A stretch of 61,113 bases of DNA from Oscillospiraceae bacterium. GTDB taxonomy: Bacteria > Bacillota > Clostridia > Oscillospirales > UBA929. Positions 175 to 6,090 of this stretch are shown here, one piece after another (the stretch's first letter is position 1; each line of letters starts with the position of its first letter). Below the pieces are notes generated by a model. The model was not told the origin of the DNA. It saw only the letters and a program-made list of their open reading frames with translations, and ran no database searches. The stretch spans positions 1-61,113 of the forward strand of contig WRIZ01000008.1 of NCBI GenBank assembly GCA_009782475.1, read 5' to 3'. Both the position numbers and the translations under genes were made by a program.

Positions 175-945
175 TTAATCCTCCGCAAATCCCCGCAGCA
201 GCTTCAGCGCGCGGCGTTCGATCCGCGACACCTGCACCTGCGAGACGCCCAAAACCCTTGCCGTGCGATCCTGCGTGAAATTGCGGTAATACCGCATGAT
301 GATAACGCTTTGCTCACGCTCGGGAAGCCTGCGCACCGCGTCGCGGATGAAAACCTGATTTAAGACGGTTTCCTCATGCCCTTCGACGCCGACCGCCCCT
401 TCGATCGTCAAACCGTCTTCGCCGCTTTCACGCTGAAGCGATTCCACCGGCTCGCCCGACCTGTCCGCTTCGGCGATGTCCTCGACCGACAAACCGCACG
501 CCTCGGATATTTCGCTCAATACAGGCTCCCGACCCAGTTGGTGCATCAGTTTTTCCCGCGCCGACCGTATGGCGGCTGAACGCTCTTTGACCGTCCGGCT
601 GACTTTCACCGCCCCGTCGTCACGCAGGAAACGCCGTATCTCGCCCGCGATTTTCGGAACGGCATAGGTGGAAAACTGGGTTCCGTAACTCTCGTCAAAG
701 CCTTTTACCGCTTTAAGAAACCCCACGCAGCCCAACTGATACAGATCGTCTGGTTCGGCACCGCGCCCGAAATAACGCCGCGCGATCGACCAAATCAACC
801 CGGAGTTTTCGACCACCACCCGCTCAAGGGCAGCCCCGTCGCCCAGTCTAGCGGCCTCTAACAGCGGCAGCGTGCCGCTGCACCCAGTGTCCGTTTTTGC
901 TTGCGGCGGGTGAGAAAATGTTTGCCCGCTCTCTAAGACGGTCAA
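175..945 (-). CDS. sigF: RNA polymerase sporulation sigma factor SigF
   Basis: This is the forespore-specific sigma factor, held inactive by SpoIIAB and released by SpoIIAA after asymmetric division. The 256-residue protein has sigma region 2 with DDLYQLGCVGFLKAV near residues 66-80 and FSTYAVPKIAGEIRRFLRD near residues 91-109. The region 4 helix-turn-helix FTQDRTARVLGVSQVQVSRI lies near the C-terminus. The proposed start is TTG, overlapping the spoIIAB stop as TTGA, which implies translational coupling. It is the last gene of spoIIAA-spoIIAB-sigF, the classical Firmicutes order. Assignment is secure from both sequence and context. Confidence 0.96.
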   Translation of the reverse strand: MTVLESGQTFSHPPQAKTDTGCSGTLPLLEAARLGDGAALERVVVENSGLIWSIARRYFGRGAEPDDLYQLGCVGFLKAVKGFDESYGTQFSTYAVPKIAGEIRRFLRDDGAVKVSRTVKERSAAIRSAREKLMHQLGREPVLSEISEACGLSVEDIAEADRSGEPVESLQRESGEDGLTIEGAVGVEGHEETVLNQVFIRDAVRRLPEREQSVIIMRYYRNFTQDRTARVLGVSQVQVSRIERRALKLLRGFAED

Positions 946-1379
946 CGCAGCAGCCTCGGCATGACCCGTTTGCGCATGACGACCGTTGTCCCGCGCCCCG
1001 CGGCCGAGCGTACCCGAAGCCTGTCCATGAAGCTCTCCATAATGGTAAACCCCATGCCGCTCCGCTCCTCGCCGCCTGTTGTATAGAGCGGTGTGCGCGC
1101 CTGATCGATGTCTTCGATCCCAACCCCTTTGTCACGCACGGTGATCTCCAAAATGCCGCCCTCCAACACCCGGGCTTGCAGCCGGATGATACCCAAACTG
1201 TCGGGATAGGCGTGGACAACGGCGTTGGTCACCGCCTCGCTCACCGATGTTTTGATGTCGCCCAGTTCTTCCAGCGTCGGGTCGAGCTGGGCTGCAAACT
1301 GGCTGGCCGCCGAACGCGCCAATGCCTCATTTGCCGAACGGGAGAGAAATTCCAGTTTCATTTCATTGAGAATCTTCAT
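942..1379 (-). CDS. spoIIAB: Anti-sigma F factor SpoIIAB
   Basis: The 145-residue GHKL-fold serine kinase binds SigF in the predivisional cell and phosphorylates SpoIIAA. The N-box EAVTNAVVHAY (about residues 46-56) and the G1 box RDKGVGI (about residues 80-87) are visible, followed by a glycine-rich GMGFTIMESF lid region. Length matches the B. subtilis protein. It overlaps sigF by four bases and is preceded by a strong GAGGTG ribosome-binding site. A palindromic repeat insertion separates it from spoIIAA, so coupling to spoIIAA is looser than in Bacillus. Confidence 0.96.
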   Translation of the reverse strand: MKILNEMKLEFLSRSANEALARSAASQFAAQLDPTLEELGDIKTSVSEAVTNAVVHAYPDSLGIIRLQARVLEGGILEITVRDKGVGIEDIDQARTPLYTTGGEERSGMGFTIMESFMDRLRVRSAAGRGTTVVMRKRVMPRLLR

Positions 1380-1394
1380 ATGTACACCTCTTTT

Positions 1395-1578
1395 TCATGC
1401 CTCCCTCACGCCTAGCGTACGCTTAGCGTCAGAGGGAGGTGTCTGCAATGCGGACGGAGGGAGAACCACCCCGCGCTTGCGGGCGCACCCCTCCACAGAG
1501 GGGAATGGAACTCTCCTCCCGCCGCCTTATGCCTAGCTTACGCTAGGCGTGGCGGCACCCTCCTCTAAGAGGAGGGCA
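1395..1578. repeat. Palindromic dispersed repeat, family B copy 1
   Basis: This composite block of nested palindromes lies between spoIIAB and spoIIAA. It contains CCTCCCTC...GAGGGAGG, two versions of the palindrome CCTAGCGTACGCTTAG, ACCACCCCG, CACCCCTCC...GAGGGG, and CCTCCTCTAAGAGGAGG. The right end supplies the stop codon and last few residues of spoIIAA. Similar modules occur at 7203-7345, 28984-29102, 29975-30071 and 47642-47686. No transposase is present; it is a non-autonomous element of REP/MITE type. Confidence 0.8.
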
Positions 1579-1888
1579 CAACCGCCCCAATCGGAACAAT
1601 CCTATCCACCCCGGCCATTGTCAGCACTTTGGCCGCGTGGTTGGGAACCTTTGCAACGGTCAGCTCGCCGCCGTAGGATTTCAGGCGTCTGTATGTACCC
1701 AGCACAACCGCGATGCCGGAGCTGTCCATAAAGGTCAGCCCTGATAAATCAAGCACGCAATGCAGCGGCATATGTTCATCCAAAGCCCCGCTGATCTCCA
1801 CCAACGCCTGATGCGCCGCATGGTGATCCAGCTCGCCCCCTAAATACAAGAAAAGCCTGCTGCCGCGCAGTTCCCAGTTGACTCGCAT
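1565..1888 (-). CDS. spoIIAA: Anti-sigma F factor antagonist SpoIIAA
   Basis: This 107-residue STAS-domain protein, when dephosphorylated by SpoIIE, strips SpoIIAB from SigF. The phospho-acceptor loop FMDSSGIAVVLG (about residues 53-64) contains the regulatory serine in the DSSG motif. It is the first gene of the spoIIA operon, and I found no convincing sigma-H promoter upstream. The C-terminal residues VPSS and the TAG stop come from the palindromic repeat, so the native end of the protein appears to have been replaced by repeat sequence; the STAS core is intact. Confidence 0.95.
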   Translation of the reverse strand: MRVNWELRGSRLFLYLGGELDHHAAHQALVEISGALDEHMPLHCVLDLSGLTFMDSSGIAVVLGTYRRLKSYGGELTVAKVPNHAAKVLTMAGVDRIVPIGAVVPSS

Positions 1889-2047: not shown

Positions 2048-2451
2048 CTAAGCTGTTATCCAATTCTCAAAATGTAATCTGTCTATATTCTCAAAATCCT
2101 TACCATTTTCCGTGACAAGAGTGCAATCATTCAGAATGCAGAAAGAGGCAATGAGAATATCGGCATCTGCTACGGTAAAATGTTTAACGTATAACTCCGC
2201 ATAGATTTGTGCGGCGCGTTCCCAAACCTCATCTGTCATACTTTCAATGGAACAGTTGGCGCAAATAATATCATATGCCTTTTCATGCTTCGGAATTTTT
2301 TTATCATCAATCCGCGCCTAATCTCATAATGAACAGCATATGGGATAATGAATTTCGCTTTTCTGCTTTTTGCTTTTTCTATGTTCTCCTCAGCTATTTT
2401 TGTTCCGCGTATAAGGTGAATAATTATATTCGCATCTAAAGCATATTTCAT
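2048..2451 (-). pseudogene. PIN-domain (VapC-like) toxin, frameshifted
   Basis: Two reading frames together encode one PIN-domain ribonuclease. The 5' part starts MKYALDANIIIHLIRG, with the first catalytic acidic residue in LDAN. The 3' part carries ADADILIASFCILNDCTLVT, with the distal acidic cluster and the conserved TEN-like motif. Frame is lost in a run of seven A residues (plus-strand T7 at about 2296-2302); an eighth A would restore a continuous protein of about 134 residues. The gene starts five bases after the antitoxin stop. It may be a pseudogene, a sequencing error at a homopolymer, or a slippage-expressed toxin. Composition is AT-rich relative to the flanks, consistent with transfer. 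Confidence 0.75.
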
Positions 2452-2455
2452 CTTA

Positions 2456-2704
2456 TCATACCTCGTCAAAGTCGATAAGTTTATGCCCTAATGTGAAACG
2501 ATGAAAATCTTCAAAGCGCGGCTTCTCATCCTCAGTCATTTCCGAGGTGAGTTTATAAAGCTCTTCCCATGTATCGGGTTTTGGGGATATTGATTTATTG
2601 ATCACTGTAATATACGTTTGCATTCCCTCCGGTATCCGTATTGTTTTACCATCTGTGTGAAAAAGTCCGTTTTGAAAATAACCTTCATATACTTGTGCCT
2701 GCAT
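2456..2704 (-). CDS. Antitoxin-like small protein upstream of vapC
   Basis: The 82-residue protein starts MQAQVYEGYFQNGLFHTDG, an N-terminal beta-strand arrangement typical of small antitoxins that pair with PIN toxins. An acidic C-terminal tail follows (EMTEDEKPRFEDF). It lies immediately upstream of the PIN-domain gene on the same strand and has its own promoter at 2747-2775. I do not recognise a precise family; the assignment rests on size, acidic tail and position. Confidence 0.65.
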   Translation of the reverse strand: MQAQVYEGYFQNGLFHTDGKTIRIPEGMQTYITVINKSISPKPDTWEELYKLTSEMTEDEKPRFEDFHRFTLGHKLIDFDEV

Positions 2705-2796: not shown

Positions 2797-2848
2797 AAAA
2801 AAGAACCCCCTGCTTCACCTAGCGTATGCTTGGTGTTGCCGGGGGTTC
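2797..2848 (-). terminator. Strong leftward terminator with no protein gene of its own
   Basis: On the minus strand GAACCCCC and GGGGGTTC arms (2803-2848) are followed by TTTTTTGCC. The hairpin loop contains a CACCTAGCG/TGCTTGGTG palindrome. The next minus-strand protein gene to the right already has its own terminator at 3215-3248. The only transcript that would need this one is the minus-strand RNA predicted to start near 3170. Confidence 0.7.
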
Positions 2849-2850
2849 GG

Positions 2851-2879
2851 TTGACACTCGCTTCAACCCATGCTATAAT
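2851..2879 (+). promoter_or_regulatory. Perfect-consensus sigma-A promoter (sense)
   Basis: TTGACA (2851-2856) and TATAAT (2874-2879) are separated by 17 bases. This is a full-consensus promoter pointing at the small ORF at 2985. The predicted start, near 2886, begins the sequence CAGAAGAACCC. The same 11 bases follow the opposing promoter at the same distance. Confidence 0.88.
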
Positions 2880-2984
2880 GCCAGTCAGAAGAACCCCCTG
2901 CTGTGGGCGTGCCTGCTGCCTACCTTTCCTTTTCTCTCGATCGAACGCCGCGCAAACGCCGGTGTGGAAAGGAGGAGATAGCTG

Positions 2985-3110
2985 ATGAAGTTGATTCAAA
3001 TGGTGAAAGAAATGCGATTATTGCTTGCGGAGTTCCGCAGGTGCGCAGAGTACATAGCCAAGCGAAAAAGCAACACAAGCGAAAAGCCCTCCCGATCAGG
3101 TCGCAACTGA
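2985..3110 (+). CDS. 41-residue small basic protein, candidate type I toxin-like peptide
   Basis: The ATG is preceded by AAAGGAGGAGATAGCTG, an excellent ribosome-binding site. The 41-residue product begins MKLIQMVKEMRLLLAEFRRC, continues with a basic stretch (AKRKS) and ends in SRSGRN. The first 27 or so residues could form an amphipathic cationic helix; there is no clear membrane-spanning segment. The gene is driven by the perfect promoter at 2851-2879, and its 3' part is overlapped by a predicted antisense RNA. I do not recognise the family. The architecture suggests a type I toxin-antitoxin mRNA, but the weak hydrophobicity argues for caution. Confidence 0.6.
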   Translation: MKLIQMVKEMRLLLAEFRRCAEYIAKRKSNTSEKPSRSGRN

Positions 3111-3170
3111 AAGAGGGCTTAACGCTTTCCGATAAGTAGCAGGCCGCCTTACGGCGGTTGGGTTCTTCTG
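3084..3170 (-). ncRNA. Predicted antisense RNA to the small ORF
   Basis: A near-consensus minus-strand promoter (3177-3205) predicts a start near 3170. A terminator-like hairpin lies at 3084-3120, with arms AAGCCCTC/GAGGGCTT followed by TTTTC on the minus strand, giving an RNA of about 90 nt complementary to the 3' end of the small-ORF mRNA. Read-through would end at the strong terminator 2797-2848, giving about 370 nt covering the whole mRNA. No protein-coding gene on this strand explains the promoter. This is a prediction; both end positions are inferred. Confidence 0.55.
3143..3156. terminator. Short GC hairpin downstream of the small ORF
   Basis: CCGCC-TTAC-GGCGG is followed on the + strand by TTGGGTTCTTCTG and then CCTTTTATT. 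It may be the 3' end structure of the sense transcript. The following GGGTTCTTCTG (3160-3170) is the exact complement of the sequence at the mRNA 5' end. Confidence 0.4.
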
Positions 3171-3176
3171 CCTTTT

Positions 3177-3205
3177 ATTCTACCACAATACCTCCCCCCT
3201 GTCAA
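3177..3205 (-). promoter_or_regulatory. Near-consensus sigma-A promoter (antisense)
   Basis: On the minus strand TTGACA (3200-3205) and TAGAAT (3177-3182) are separated by 17 bases. The expected start near 3170 is the first base of CAGAAGAACCC on the minus strand, seven bases after the -10 element. This is the same spacing and sequence as at the opposing promoter. Confidence 0.82.
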
Positions 3206-3214
3206 ACAATTTTC

Positions 3215-3248
3215 ACATAAAAGAACCCCCGGCCTAAGCCGGGGGTTC
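3215..3248 (-). terminator. Strong rho-independent terminator of the secreted-protein gene
   Basis: A perfect 11-bp stem GAACCCCCGGC/GCCGGGGGTTC with a CTAA loop is followed on the minus strand by TTTTATG. It lies just after the stop codon of the gene at 3267-4754. Confidence 0.9.
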
Positions 3249-3266
3249 GGTTGCTGTATGTTAGGG

Positions 3267-4754
3267 TTAGGGGGCGAGCGGCACGAGTGTGACGCTTACG
3301 ATGCCGACTTTTTGCTTACCGGCGTCCGCGTCAGGATTGAGAACGCCAAATTTCACAGTAACTTGCCTCGGTTCGCTTGCGGCGAATGTGTCATCAACAG
3401 CTTTGTTATTTTTGCCGTCGTGTTTCGCCGTGTTTTTGATGCGGATATAGATTACTTTTTCAGTGTCTTTCGCTCCCGTGAGTTTCGGGAATTTTGTCCA
3501 TTTGTCGGTATCCGCAGGTTCTGTGGCTTTATCCAAGAACTCATACAGTTTGCCGGCGTCGGTCACTTTGCCGTTGGAAACATCCAAAGCGATCGAAGAA
3601 ATCACGCCTTGTTTGGCCAGTGTGAAGGTTTGAATGGCACTGGCGGCTTTCTTGGCGGTGGCTGTCTGGAAGACTTTAACCGAAGCAAACTCGCTGTCGC
3701 TGATCGCGTCGGCGATGGATACGCCTTTTTTGGCTGCCTCTTTATCAGCGAACACTGTGAAGCTGGAATCTGTGGCGACTGCCCAACCAAGTTTGCCTTT
3801 GAGGTTGTTGAGTTTGTAGTTGGGTTTGCCTTTGGGGGCTTTTTGCAGGGTGGTGACGCTCAGCTTGCCTGCGCTTGTGCCCGGGACGAATGTGCCGTCG
3901 GCTTTTTCATAGGCTTTTACTCTGTAGACATAGACGTCTTTTTCGGCTTTTCCGCTTTCAGGCAGATCGCGAACCGCAACACCTGTGGCCGGGAAAGCAG
4001 CCCAAGCATCTTTCGGGTTTTTCTTGTCTTCCGAGATGCTGTACTCGAGATTGGCATACTCGGCATATACGTCGCTCTTGCCTTTTTCCGCTACTGTCCA
4101 GTGGCCGTTTGCAGAAAAAGGAACGCCAATGCTGGTGTCAGTGCCGACAATATCATTGCGGATAGGCGCGCCGGTGATAACGGTATCTCCTAAGGCAGCG
4201 ACAATGCTGGATTCACTGGCGGCTTGGTTGTTGCCAAACAGCGCGTAGTTAACGGTGAGTTTCGGGGCTTTTTCTTTTTTGGCAACCGATTTGTAAGAAA
4301 CGGTGTAAGCGGAATTCACTGCGGCAGCTTCTTTTCCGGTTTCGGTTACTTCTACACTGCCTTTGAGCGGAACAGGTTTCTTGTCCGCGCTCAGCGCGCT
4401 GGTGAGCTGCATTACGCCGCCTTTTTTCAGCCATTTGGCAATGTCTTCGGTTGACGGCGCGCCGGCTTGCCATTTTTTGCCGTCATACCAGCCGGCGATG
4501 GTAAAGCCGTTGGCGTCAATTTTTTCGTTGGCGATGTCAAAAATCGGAAGAGCTGTTGTAAGGGGAGCTTCTTGCCCGTTTGCTGTGGCGACAGTTTCGT
4601 CCGCGAACTTCGTCTTTTCGCCATCAACTGTAACCTTGAGTGGGGGAAGGTCGTCGCTTAGGATGGGGTCGGCCGCGGCTGCTGGGGCTACGAAGAACGC
4701 CGAGACCATCACGAGGGCGATAAGTAGAGACGCGGTGCGTTTTAAGTTTCTCAT
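3267..4754 (-). CDS. Secreted cell-surface protein of unknown function
   Basis: The 495-residue protein has a clear signal peptide (MRNLKRTASLLIALVMVSAF, cleavage near APAAAADP). The mature region is Lys-, Ala- and Thr-rich with several beta-sandwich-like segments (for example DVYVYRVKAYEKADGTF, EKVIYIRIKNTAKHDG). There is no transmembrane anchor, LPXTG motif or SLH domain, so attachment is unknown. It has its own promoter (4846-4874), a strong terminator (3215-3248), and four direct repeats directly upstream of the -35, suggesting control by a response regulator. The family is not recognised. Confidence 0.85.
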   Translation of the reverse strand: MRNLKRTASLLIALVMVSAFFVAPAAAADPILSDDLPPLKVTVDGEKTKFADETVATANGQEAPLTTALPIFDIANEKIDANGFTIAGWYDGKKWQAGAPSTEDIAKWLKKGGVMQLTSALSADKKPVPLKGSVEVTETGKEAAAVNSAYTVSYKSVAKKEKAPKLTVNYALFGNNQAASESSIVAALGDTVITGAPIRNDIVGTDTSIGVPFSANGHWTVAEKGKSDVYAEYANLEYSISEDKKNPKDAWAAFPATGVAVRDLPESGKAEKDVYVYRVKAYEKADGTFVPGTSAGKLSVTTLQKAPKGKPNYKLNNLKGKLGWAVATDSSFTVFADKEAAKKGVSIADAISDSEFASVKVFQTATAKKAASAIQTFTLAKQGVISSIALDVSNGKVTDAGKLYEFLDKATEPADTDKWTKFPKLTGAKDTEKVIYIRIKNTAKHDGKNNKAVDDTFAASEPRQVTVKFGVLNPDADAGKQKVGIVSVTLVPLAP

Positions 4755-4845
4755 TTTGCTTTGCCTCCATTCATTTTCATGCGGCGAGAATCCTTTCAGG
4801 CCGCGTTAATTGGTTTCGCGGTGCGGATTGACTGCCGTTGTGATC

Positions 4846-4874
4846 ACTTTACCAGCTGTTTGGGGCGGCGTCAA
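4846..4874 (-). promoter_or_regulatory. Sigma-A-type promoter of the secreted-protein gene
   Basis: On the minus strand TTGACG (4869-4874) and TAAAGT (4846-4851) are separated by 17 bases. The -10 is imperfect, as expected of an activated promoter, and four direct repeats lie immediately upstream of the -35. Confidence 0.65.
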
Positions 4875-4877
4875 GCG

Positions 4878-4928
4878 TTCTCACAGCTTTTTCACACGTC
4901 CTAATCCTTTTCTCACAGGATTCTCACA
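4878..4928 (-). promoter_or_regulatory. Four direct repeats, PhoB/PhoP-type operator candidate
   Basis: On the minus strand the motif TGTGAGAA occurs at 4921-4928, 4910-4917 and 4878-4885, with the variant TGTGAAAA at 4889-4896. Start-to-start spacings are 11, 21 and 11 bases. The nearest copy ends four bases upstream of the -35. Eleven-base direct repeats are typical of OmpR/PhoB-family response regulator sites. The regulator itself is not in the window. Confidence 0.6.
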
Positions 4929-4945
4929 ACGGCTGATTTGGGTAG

Positions 4946-4964
4946 GGGCGCGCAAAGCGCGCCC
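4946..4964 (-). terminator. GC-rich hairpin after flagellin
   Basis: A perfect eight-base-pair stem GGGCGCGC/GCGCGCCC with an AAA loop lies 28 bases past the flagellin stop codon. There is no clear T tract, so it may be an RNA-stabilising or inefficient terminator structure. Confidence 0.45.
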
Positions 4965-4992
4965 ACTAACTCAATCAAAAAACTAACTTGGA

Positions 4993-6090
4993 TTACTGAA
5001 GGAGCTGGAGAACCGTCTGCGGAGCCTGGTTGGCTTGCGCCAGCATGGCAGTCGCGGCTTGGTTCAGGATGCTGTTTTTGGTGAAGGACATCATTTCTTT
5101 CGCCATGTCTACGTCGCGGATGCGGGCTTCGGCAGCCTGCATGTTTTCGGCGACGGTATCGACGTTGGAAACGGTGTGCTCAAGGCGGTTCTGCACGGCA
5201 CCGAGTTCGCTTCTCAGGAAGGAGACGCGGGCAAGGCCTGTGTACTCTTGCGGGCCTTCAAGGGGCTCGCCTTCGGTGTTGAGGTTACCGTCGAGGATGT
5301 TGATGAGGAGCTGCCAGTTGGATTCGGCTTCAGCCGGAATGGCCGCTTCATCGCGCTCTTCTTCGGCGTTCAGGTTACCGGTCGAGTTGTCGGGGCGGAG
5401 TTGTTCGTTGAAGCCGTATTCCCAATCGGTGATGCCGGCGGGGTCGCCTTTGAAGGCGCCGAGCTGGCCGTAGAAGTCTTCGCCGCCGAGAAGATCCATG
5501 CGGCTCACGCCGAAGATGTTCACGGTGATGACGTCGCCGAGGTTGGTGTTGGCGCCGACTTGCAGGTTGATGACTGTCGGGCCTTCTTCGATCAGGTCTT
5601 TGGCGACGTTGGGATAGTTGGGCTCACGGATGTTGATACCGTCAAGGAAATCGGCCTGCAAAGCTCCGCCGTAGGCGCCGGAAAGTATGTATTTGCCGTT
5701 GAAGTTGGTTGTGGAAGCGATTCTTTCAAGCTCTTCGGCGAGGGATTCCAGCTCGGCCAGCATGGCGTCGCGGTCTTCCTGAGCCGGCACGCCGCTGGCG
5801 CCTTGGATGGCCAGTTCGCGCATTCTCTGAAGGATGCTTTGGGTTTCCTGAAGGGCGCCTTCAGCCGCTTGGATCATCGAGATGCCGTCTTGCGCGTTCA
5901 TGGAAGCGCGGTTAAGGCCGCGGATCTGGGCGCGCATTTTTTCGGAAATTGTGAGGCCGGCGGCATCGTCGGCGGCGCGGTTGACGCGATAACCGGAGCT
6001 GAGTTTCTCTGTGGATTTCGCTTGGTTCAGCTGGTTGATCCCGAGTTGGCGATGTGTATTGATCGCCATGATGTTGTTTTGGATACGCAT
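4993..6090 (-). CDS. hag: Flagellin
   Basis: The 365-residue flagellar filament subunit has conserved terminal D0/D1 domains. The N-terminal half begins MRIQNNIMAINTHRQLG and includes the Toll-like-receptor-type helix region LQRMRELAIQ. The C-terminus contains RSELGAVQNRLEHTVSN and ends NQAPQTVLQLLQ. The central variable domain (about residues 150-270) is short and acidic. It is monocistronic, behind a sigma-D promoter (6241-6267) and a sigma-A-like promoter (6316-6344), with a leader of about 150 bases. No other flagellar structural gene is nearby. The SD is AAGGAGG. Confidence 0.95.
   Translation of the reverse strand: MRIQNNIMAINTHRQLGINQLNQAKSTEKLSSGYRVNRAADDAAGLTISEKMRAQIRGLNRASMNAQDGISMIQAAEGALQETQSILQRMRELAIQGASGVPAQEDRDAMLAELESLAEELERIASTTNFNGKYILSGAYGGALQADFLDGINIREPNYPNVAKDLIEEGPTVINLQVGANTNLGDVITVNIFGVSRMDLLGGEDFYGQLGAFKGDPAGITDWEYGFNEQLRPDNSTGNLNAEEERDEAAIPAEAESNWQLLINILDGNLNTEGEPLEGPQEYTGLARVSFLRSELGAVQNRLEHTVSNVDTVAENMQAAEARIRDVDMAKEMMSFTKNSILNQAATAMLAQANQAPQTVLQLLQ

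Follow-up and report, generated by a model that had tools for sequence, protein, structure and literature searches.

A probable type I toxin-antitoxin-like cassette of bsrG/SR4 anatomy with a predicted cationic amphipathic peptide in an Oscillospiraceae bacterium

Introduction

According to a 2021 review, type I toxins are either peptides that span the membrane or one of the two cytosolic nucleases RalR and SymE; the Fst/Ldr family consists of membrane peptides with the conserved core motif PXXXGC (PMC8309996). For bsrG/SR4, overlap of the toxin and antisense RNAs at their 3' ends and sequestration of the Shine-Dalgarno (SD) sequence have been published (PMC6562991). Here, we analyzed a locus around positions 2797-3250 of contig WRIZ01000008.1 of an Oscillospiraceae bacterium. 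This contig of 61,113 nucleotides, referred to as the window, is number 8 of the 49 contigs of a 2.1-Mb genome. The locus consists of a 41-codon open reading frame (ORF) between two facing promoters and is probably a type I toxin-antitoxin-like cassette with the anatomy of bsrG/SR4. Its peptide may represent a novel type of self-directed toxin in gut bacteria.

Results

Two opposed promoters flank a small ORF with a predicted self-closing mRNA

A first reading of the DNA, here called the original prediction, had placed at this site a perfect sigma-A promoter with a strong ribosome-binding site in front of the 41-codon ORF, together with a near-perfect promoter facing it from the 3' side. Both promoters were recovered and rank among the best promoter-like sites of the first 6 kb (nine found versus 3.2 expected from shuffles), and the ribosome-binding site and the ORF lie where they had been proposed. 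As in type I loci of the bsrG/SR4 kind, a small ORF with its own promoter and a strong SD sequence is combined with a conserved opposed promoter, placed for an antisense RNA over the 3' part of the mRNA, and with an mRNA fold that sequesters the SD sequence and pairs the 5' and 3' ends, as judged from predicted folds and a G.U bias of the coding strand. The features of the locus are as follows:

2797-2848, minus strand: strong leftward terminator whose loop contains an unrelated palindrome, seen by eye and missed by the terminator scan; outside the conserved cassette
2851-2879, plus strand: sense promoter TTGACA-17-TATAAT, 12/12 match with extended -10 TG, kept in homologous cassettes
2886-2896, plus strand: 5' arm of closing helix P1, CAGAAGAACCC, pairing with 3160-3170 (fold and cassette comparison)
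2911-2922, plus strand: 5' arm of closing helix P2, GCCTGCTGCCTA, partner at about 3133-3144, covarying among copies (arms compared by eye)
2923-2929, plus strand: anti-SD CCTTTCC, pairing with GGAAAGG of the ribosome-binding site
2966-2975, plus strand: SD region GGAAAGGAGG, read from the sequence
2985-3110, plus strand: 41-codon ORF for a cationic amphipathic peptide, the predicted toxin (ORF call, homologues, dN/dS, hydropathy, AlphaFold)
3077-3127, no strand assigned: stop-codon hairpin with core 3084-3120, standing apart in the fold; likely antisense terminator
3077-3170, minus strand: predicted antisense (antitoxin) RNA with its start near 3170 and a length of about 94 nt, placed from the promoter and complementary to the last part of the mRNA
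3144-3157, plus strand: hairpin GCCGCC/GGCGG close to the 3' end of the sense RNA and followed by T-rich DNA; a possible terminator of this RNA
3160-3170, plus strand: 3' arm of closing helix P1, GGGTTCTTCTG (fold and cassette comparison)
3177-3205, minus strand: antisense promoter TTGACA-17-TAGAAT, 11/12 match with TG, shared by every homologous cassette that is complete at both ends
3223-3248, minus strand: terminator of the leftward gene 3267-4754 and right boundary of the locus (terminator scan)

The sense RNA of 2886-3170 folds with -127 kcal/mol (z = -7.3), its antisense counterpart with -108 kcal/mol (z = -4.1). In the predicted sense fold, P2 pairs GCCTGCTGCC with GTAGCAGGC on the 3' side, and the SD sequence is buried with a mean pairing probability of 0.92. 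The other copies are likewise predicted to close 5' to 3', to hide the SD sequence and to form a stop-codon hairpin with U after it on the antisense strand, although in a few homologues the SD pairing is weak (mean probability 0.4-0.5). Since MAFFT/RNAalifold misaligned the 5' arms of family A, pairing was scored for each cassette instead. The sense strand folds more stably than the antisense strand in 16 of 18 cassettes, and in 25 cassettes covering all classes, the mismatches of the terminal repeats are G.U in 113 cases versus A.C in 36 (p ~1e-10). G.U pairs are possible only in the RNA of the coding strand, and this bias therefore indicates that selection maintains the coding-strand RNA instead of a DNA repeat. 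A search of the window against Rfam 15 at gathering score returned no structured RNA.

The hairpin that had been noticed at 3084-3120 is present as well and is likely the terminator of the antisense RNA, because its U-tract lies on the minus strand. Among 29 loci, the antisense side of the stop-codon hairpin is T-richer in 22 (Wilcoxon p = 6e-4), and 3076-3170 of the minus strand folds with z = -3.2. The leftward terminator at 2797-2848, which the original prediction had offered as another possible end of this RNA, was found by eye; its role as antisense end is less likely because it lies outside the conserved cassette. The antisense RNA thus more probably ends at the stop-codon hairpin, while the leftward terminator probably serves to insulate a neighbouring PIN toxin-antitoxin operon and is not a core part of the cassette.

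It was also seen that Lys codons directly before the stop codon provide the U-tract of the predicted antisense terminator, both in the window (3077-3127) and in other cassettes. This double use is a possible reason for the Lys-rich tails of type I toxins.

The cassette is conserved as a unit and its codons are constrained

The 41-residue ORF has one paralogue, on contig 3 of its own genome (G000), and six homologues in two congeneric Oscillospiraceae metagenome-assembled genomes (MAGs), three in G008 and three in G009, one of the latter ending at a contig end. The copies occupy different loci; the named relatives of the same genus are the Oscillospiraceae MAGs Cx337_bin19 and Th196P3bin109, and the isolate names hint at a termite gut as a possible source. 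Each copy complete on both sides extends from promoter to opposed promoter, and the opposed promoter, whose absence at homologous loci would have refuted the original prediction, was kept in 7/7 of them. The three G008 copies are similar across this unit of about 460 bp and dissimilar beyond it. Pairwise ratios of nonsynonymous to synonymous substitutions (dN/dS) over the first 28 codons were below 1 in 19 of the 20 computable pairs and mostly between 0.1 and 0.76, the sole exception being a pair with only three base differences. These comparisons indicate that the codons of the ORF are mostly under purifying selection, in line with a codon test proposed in advance, in which a ratio near 1 was to speak against the original prediction.

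On contig 3 of G000, the cassette lies between glyS and a transketolase gene. At this junction G007 and G010 have both genes without the cassette, and G008 and G009 have other intervening sequence. In place of the G000 cassette, the glyS-transketolase gap of G010 (L158, G010:C2, just after glyS) contains another inverted repeat, GAACCTGTTTCC .. GGAACAGGTTC, and the gap may therefore be an insertion hot spot.

A detector for the anatomy (promoter, opposed promoter, terminal inverted repeat and small ORF preceded by an SD sequence) was run on 1.68 of the 2.10 Mb of the own genome, fetched as stretches. It reported about nine loci versus none in a first-order Markov control, bearing in mind that it was tuned after the first copies had been seen and that several matches in the real genome look spurious. 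The loci are the window locus, the contig-3 paralogue, two loci for 24-residue amphipathic peptides and five for membrane types.

Across 295 genomes at order level and 391 at class level, a profile of the 41-residue family found nothing credible beyond one genus and one related sequence of a sister genus. In the profile searches of order and class, strong matches stayed within the taxonomic family; weaker ones outside it lacked the cassette anatomy where checked and were taken as chance. The viral contigs and the phage and plasmid records searched yielded no relative of the ORF.

The peptide is predicted to be a cationic amphipathic helix

The best 19-residue segment of the window peptide has a mean Kyte-Doolittle hydropathy (KD19) of 0.46 and carries six charges. 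This agrees with the original description of the peptide as cationic and amphipathic instead of clearly membrane-spanning, and a hydrophobic transmembrane peptide, the usual though not universal type I trait, is thus not found here. AlphaFold predicted a single helix of residues 2-32 with a loose tail, the predicted local distance difference test score (pLDDT) being mostly above 88 over residues 1-30. The peptide is accordingly modelled as a cationic amphipathic helix and not as a membrane span.

Searches of Pfam, NCBIfam and PHROG with the 41 residues gave no credible match. The Hol_Tox model (PF16935), which recognizes BsrG and several peptides of neighbouring chassis over its cut-off, did not match the window peptide, and the PXXXGC motif is absent from this sequence, which is not membrane-spanning. 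By sequence, the window peptide is a member of neither the Hol_Tox nor the Fst family.

The same chassis carries other payloads

Hol_Tox (PF16935) peptides are encoded in the same genomes, and their loci share the layout of the cassette. A second amphipathic family, a 24-residue peptide of the ELRKLIQALASLIRAIKTK type, is carried in the same chassis; it occurs in at least three genera of the taxonomic family, and the scanned copies have an opposed promoter. A third copy of this family in the own genome was found by profile search on contig 9, and its sense promoter is weak. In G015, a 24-residue (A2) cassette lies within 600 bp of a Hol_Tox cassette. Homology between the 41-residue and 24-residue families was not established (hhalign probability 4.8). 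Among the cassettes, the membrane types have a best 19-residue hydropathy above 2.0 with 0-2 charges in that segment, the amphipathic types one of at most 1.1 with 4-6 charges and a hydrophobic moment of 0.52-0.70. One chassis would thus carry both membrane and non-membrane payloads.

On contig G009:C50 (L039), positions 3900-5400 of the minus strand contain a tandem array of four small-peptide cassettes with opposed promoters. Two cassettes encode Hol_Tox peptides, the other two another membrane type (PRGCIKVIIRY.., NKRSKTVIRY..) without a Pfam match.

The described bsrG locus of phage SPbeta shows the same layout when analyzed in this way, which bears out the likeness to bsrG/SR4 that had been proposed. 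BsrG scores as Hol_Tox, and its predicted mRNA closes 5' to 3', with an SD hairpin and a hairpin beside the stop codon; behind the latter, the antisense strand reads UAUUUUUUCUUUU, which derives from the Lys codons. An opposed promoter with a 10/12 match lies downstream. These features agree with the 3' overlap and SD sequestration described in the literature (PMC6562991).

Genomic neighbourhood

To the left of the locus (window 2048-2704, minus strand), a PIN-domain toxin gene is split over two frames, 2236-2469 and 2048-2239, which both match PIN. Next to it lies a small partner ORF, 2456-2704; either the two form a VapBC-like pair in which the toxin is broken, or the split is due to an error in sequencing. 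The leftward gene 3267-4754 encodes a 495-residue protein without a match in Pfam. The flanking genes include a SigF/SpoIIAB/SpoIIAA-like sporulation operon and a flagellin gene (window 175-1888 and 4993-6090, minus strand).

The palindrome in the leftward terminator belongs to a dispersed sequence, ACGCC(A/T)AGCGTA(C/A)GCT(A/T)GGCGT, with about 12 copies in 1.68 Mb versus one in a Markov control (window 1414, window 2813-2834, L054:3530, L084:6858 and others). It occupies the loops of terminator hairpins and also lies inside some cassettes, including the SD hairpin of the one on contig 7.

Discussion

How firmly the locus can be assigned to the type I systems depends on what else could explain its anatomy. 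On one alternative, the locus makes a small RNA with a regulatory or dual function, and its amphipathic peptide is not a toxin but a harmless effector under antisense control, for example a micropeptide binding to the membrane surface or to a protein. This reading would fit the low hydrophobicity of the peptide, and purifying selection suits any useful peptide. We nevertheless consider it unlikely, as the chassis is shared with the Hol_Tox/BsrG-type loci of the same genomes, and the cassette has several copies at unrelated loci and an empty site in relatives, as toxin-antitoxin cassettes typically do. The empty site, the dispersed copies, the terminal inverted repeats and the restriction of similarity to the unit are also what one would expect of a mobile element resembling a miniature inverted-repeat transposable element, with promoters in its terminal repeats and an incidental ORF. 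Yet the codons are conserved, the repeats have diverged among copies while their helices are kept, and the excess of G.U mismatches is unexpected for a repeat maintained as DNA. Because of this bias we rejected a mobile element as the main explanation, and rate it as very unlikely; covariation is G.U-biased where conserved DNA repeats and target-site duplications would mark such elements, no systematic search for duplications having been made. It is just as hard to credit that the amphipathic peptides are decayed or altered Hol_Tox descendants that lost toxicity and act, for instance, as decoys or antidotes for nearby membrane types. The close spacing of A2 and Hol_Tox cassettes in G015 and the company of membrane and amphipathic types on G009:C50 would suit such a role, but the two amphipathic families are each conserved separately with intact RNA control, and the Pfam model searches found no sequence link to Hol_Tox, which makes this origin most improbable.

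The type I assignment, which we regard as probable, has its own weak points. Almost all type I toxins are hydrophobic, which this peptide is not, and its family is limited to one genus apart from the one sister-genus sequence. The terminal-repeat scores of several single cassettes fail to beat shuffles alone, the G.U and U-tract counts come from related sequences, so that their p values are optimistic, and the count of T-richness includes automatic mis-picks of the stop-codon hairpin (G009_C2, G008_C32, G008_C31, G064 and BsrG). Transcription, antisense action, toxicity and target of the locus are moreover what we infer from its sequence.

By analogy with bsrG/SR4 and aapA/IsoA (PMC6562991, PMC6733600), the plus-strand promoter would give an mRNA of about 285 nt whose ends are paired and whose SD sequence is buried, and this full-length transcript would be poorly translated. 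The minus-strand promoter would produce the antisense RNA of about 94 nt terminating at the stop-codon hairpin. This RNA may pair with the final third of the mRNA, where the 3' arms of the closing helices lie, leading to decay by RNase III and to a block of translation. A drop in antisense RNA or 3' trimming of the mRNA would then allow production of the 41-residue helix, which would harm its own cell. Judging from the chemistry of the peptide, it would most likely act by binding to the inner face of the membrane.

More tentatively, and with slightly more doubt than conviction, we propose that the bsrG-type chassis is a general frame with exchangeable payloads, in which the 41-residue KEMRLLLAE and 24-residue families form a third class of type I toxins, neither membrane-spanning nor nuclease, whose site of action would be the membrane surface or a target in the cytosol. 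If a bsrG-like frame does carry a non-membrane amphipathic payload, the RNA control module would be the conserved unit and the peptide the exchangeable part. Such loci would escape searches that rely on hydrophobic peptides, while searches for the RNA and promoter anatomy find them. A simple and testable explanation for the lysines at the end of many type I toxins would be that Lys codons overlap the antisense U-tract.

Comparison with known systems

The closest likeness in layout is to bsrG/SR4 of the Bacillus phage SPbeta (also txpA/RatA, bsrE/SR5 and yonT/SR6), where convergent toxin and antisense RNAs overlap at their 3' ends, the SD sequence lies in a hairpin of a 5'-3' closed mRNA, and a stop-codon hairpin carries an antisense U-tract derived partly from Lys codons. 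In contrast to BsrG, a transmembrane Hol_Tox peptide, the window peptide is amphipathic and matches neither Hol_Tox nor another family, and the antisense RNA of the window is predicted to be shorter. The Hol_Tox loci G000:C21, G000:C23 and G009:C50 likewise have opposed promoters, terminal pairing, a buried SD sequence and a stop-codon hairpin, whereas their peptides exceed a KD19 of 2.0 with 0-1 charges, compared with 0.46 and six charges in the window.

We know of no homology between the window locus and aapA/IsoA of Helicobacter pylori. The two have in common a long-distance 5'-3' closure of the mRNA that blocks translation (PMC6733600), as predicted here, whereas AapA1 is an amphipathic transmembrane helix (PMC8309996). 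Type I modules of Clostridioides difficile (CD2517.1-RCd8, CD2907.1-RCd9) are also convergent, with a long antisense overlap and small toxin genes, but their toxins are hydrophobic with a Lys-rich tail (PMC6563280). The cytosolic toxins SymE and RalR resemble the window product in not being membrane peptides; they cleave RNA or DNA (PMC8309996), whereas the window encodes a 41-residue peptide predicted to form a single helix.
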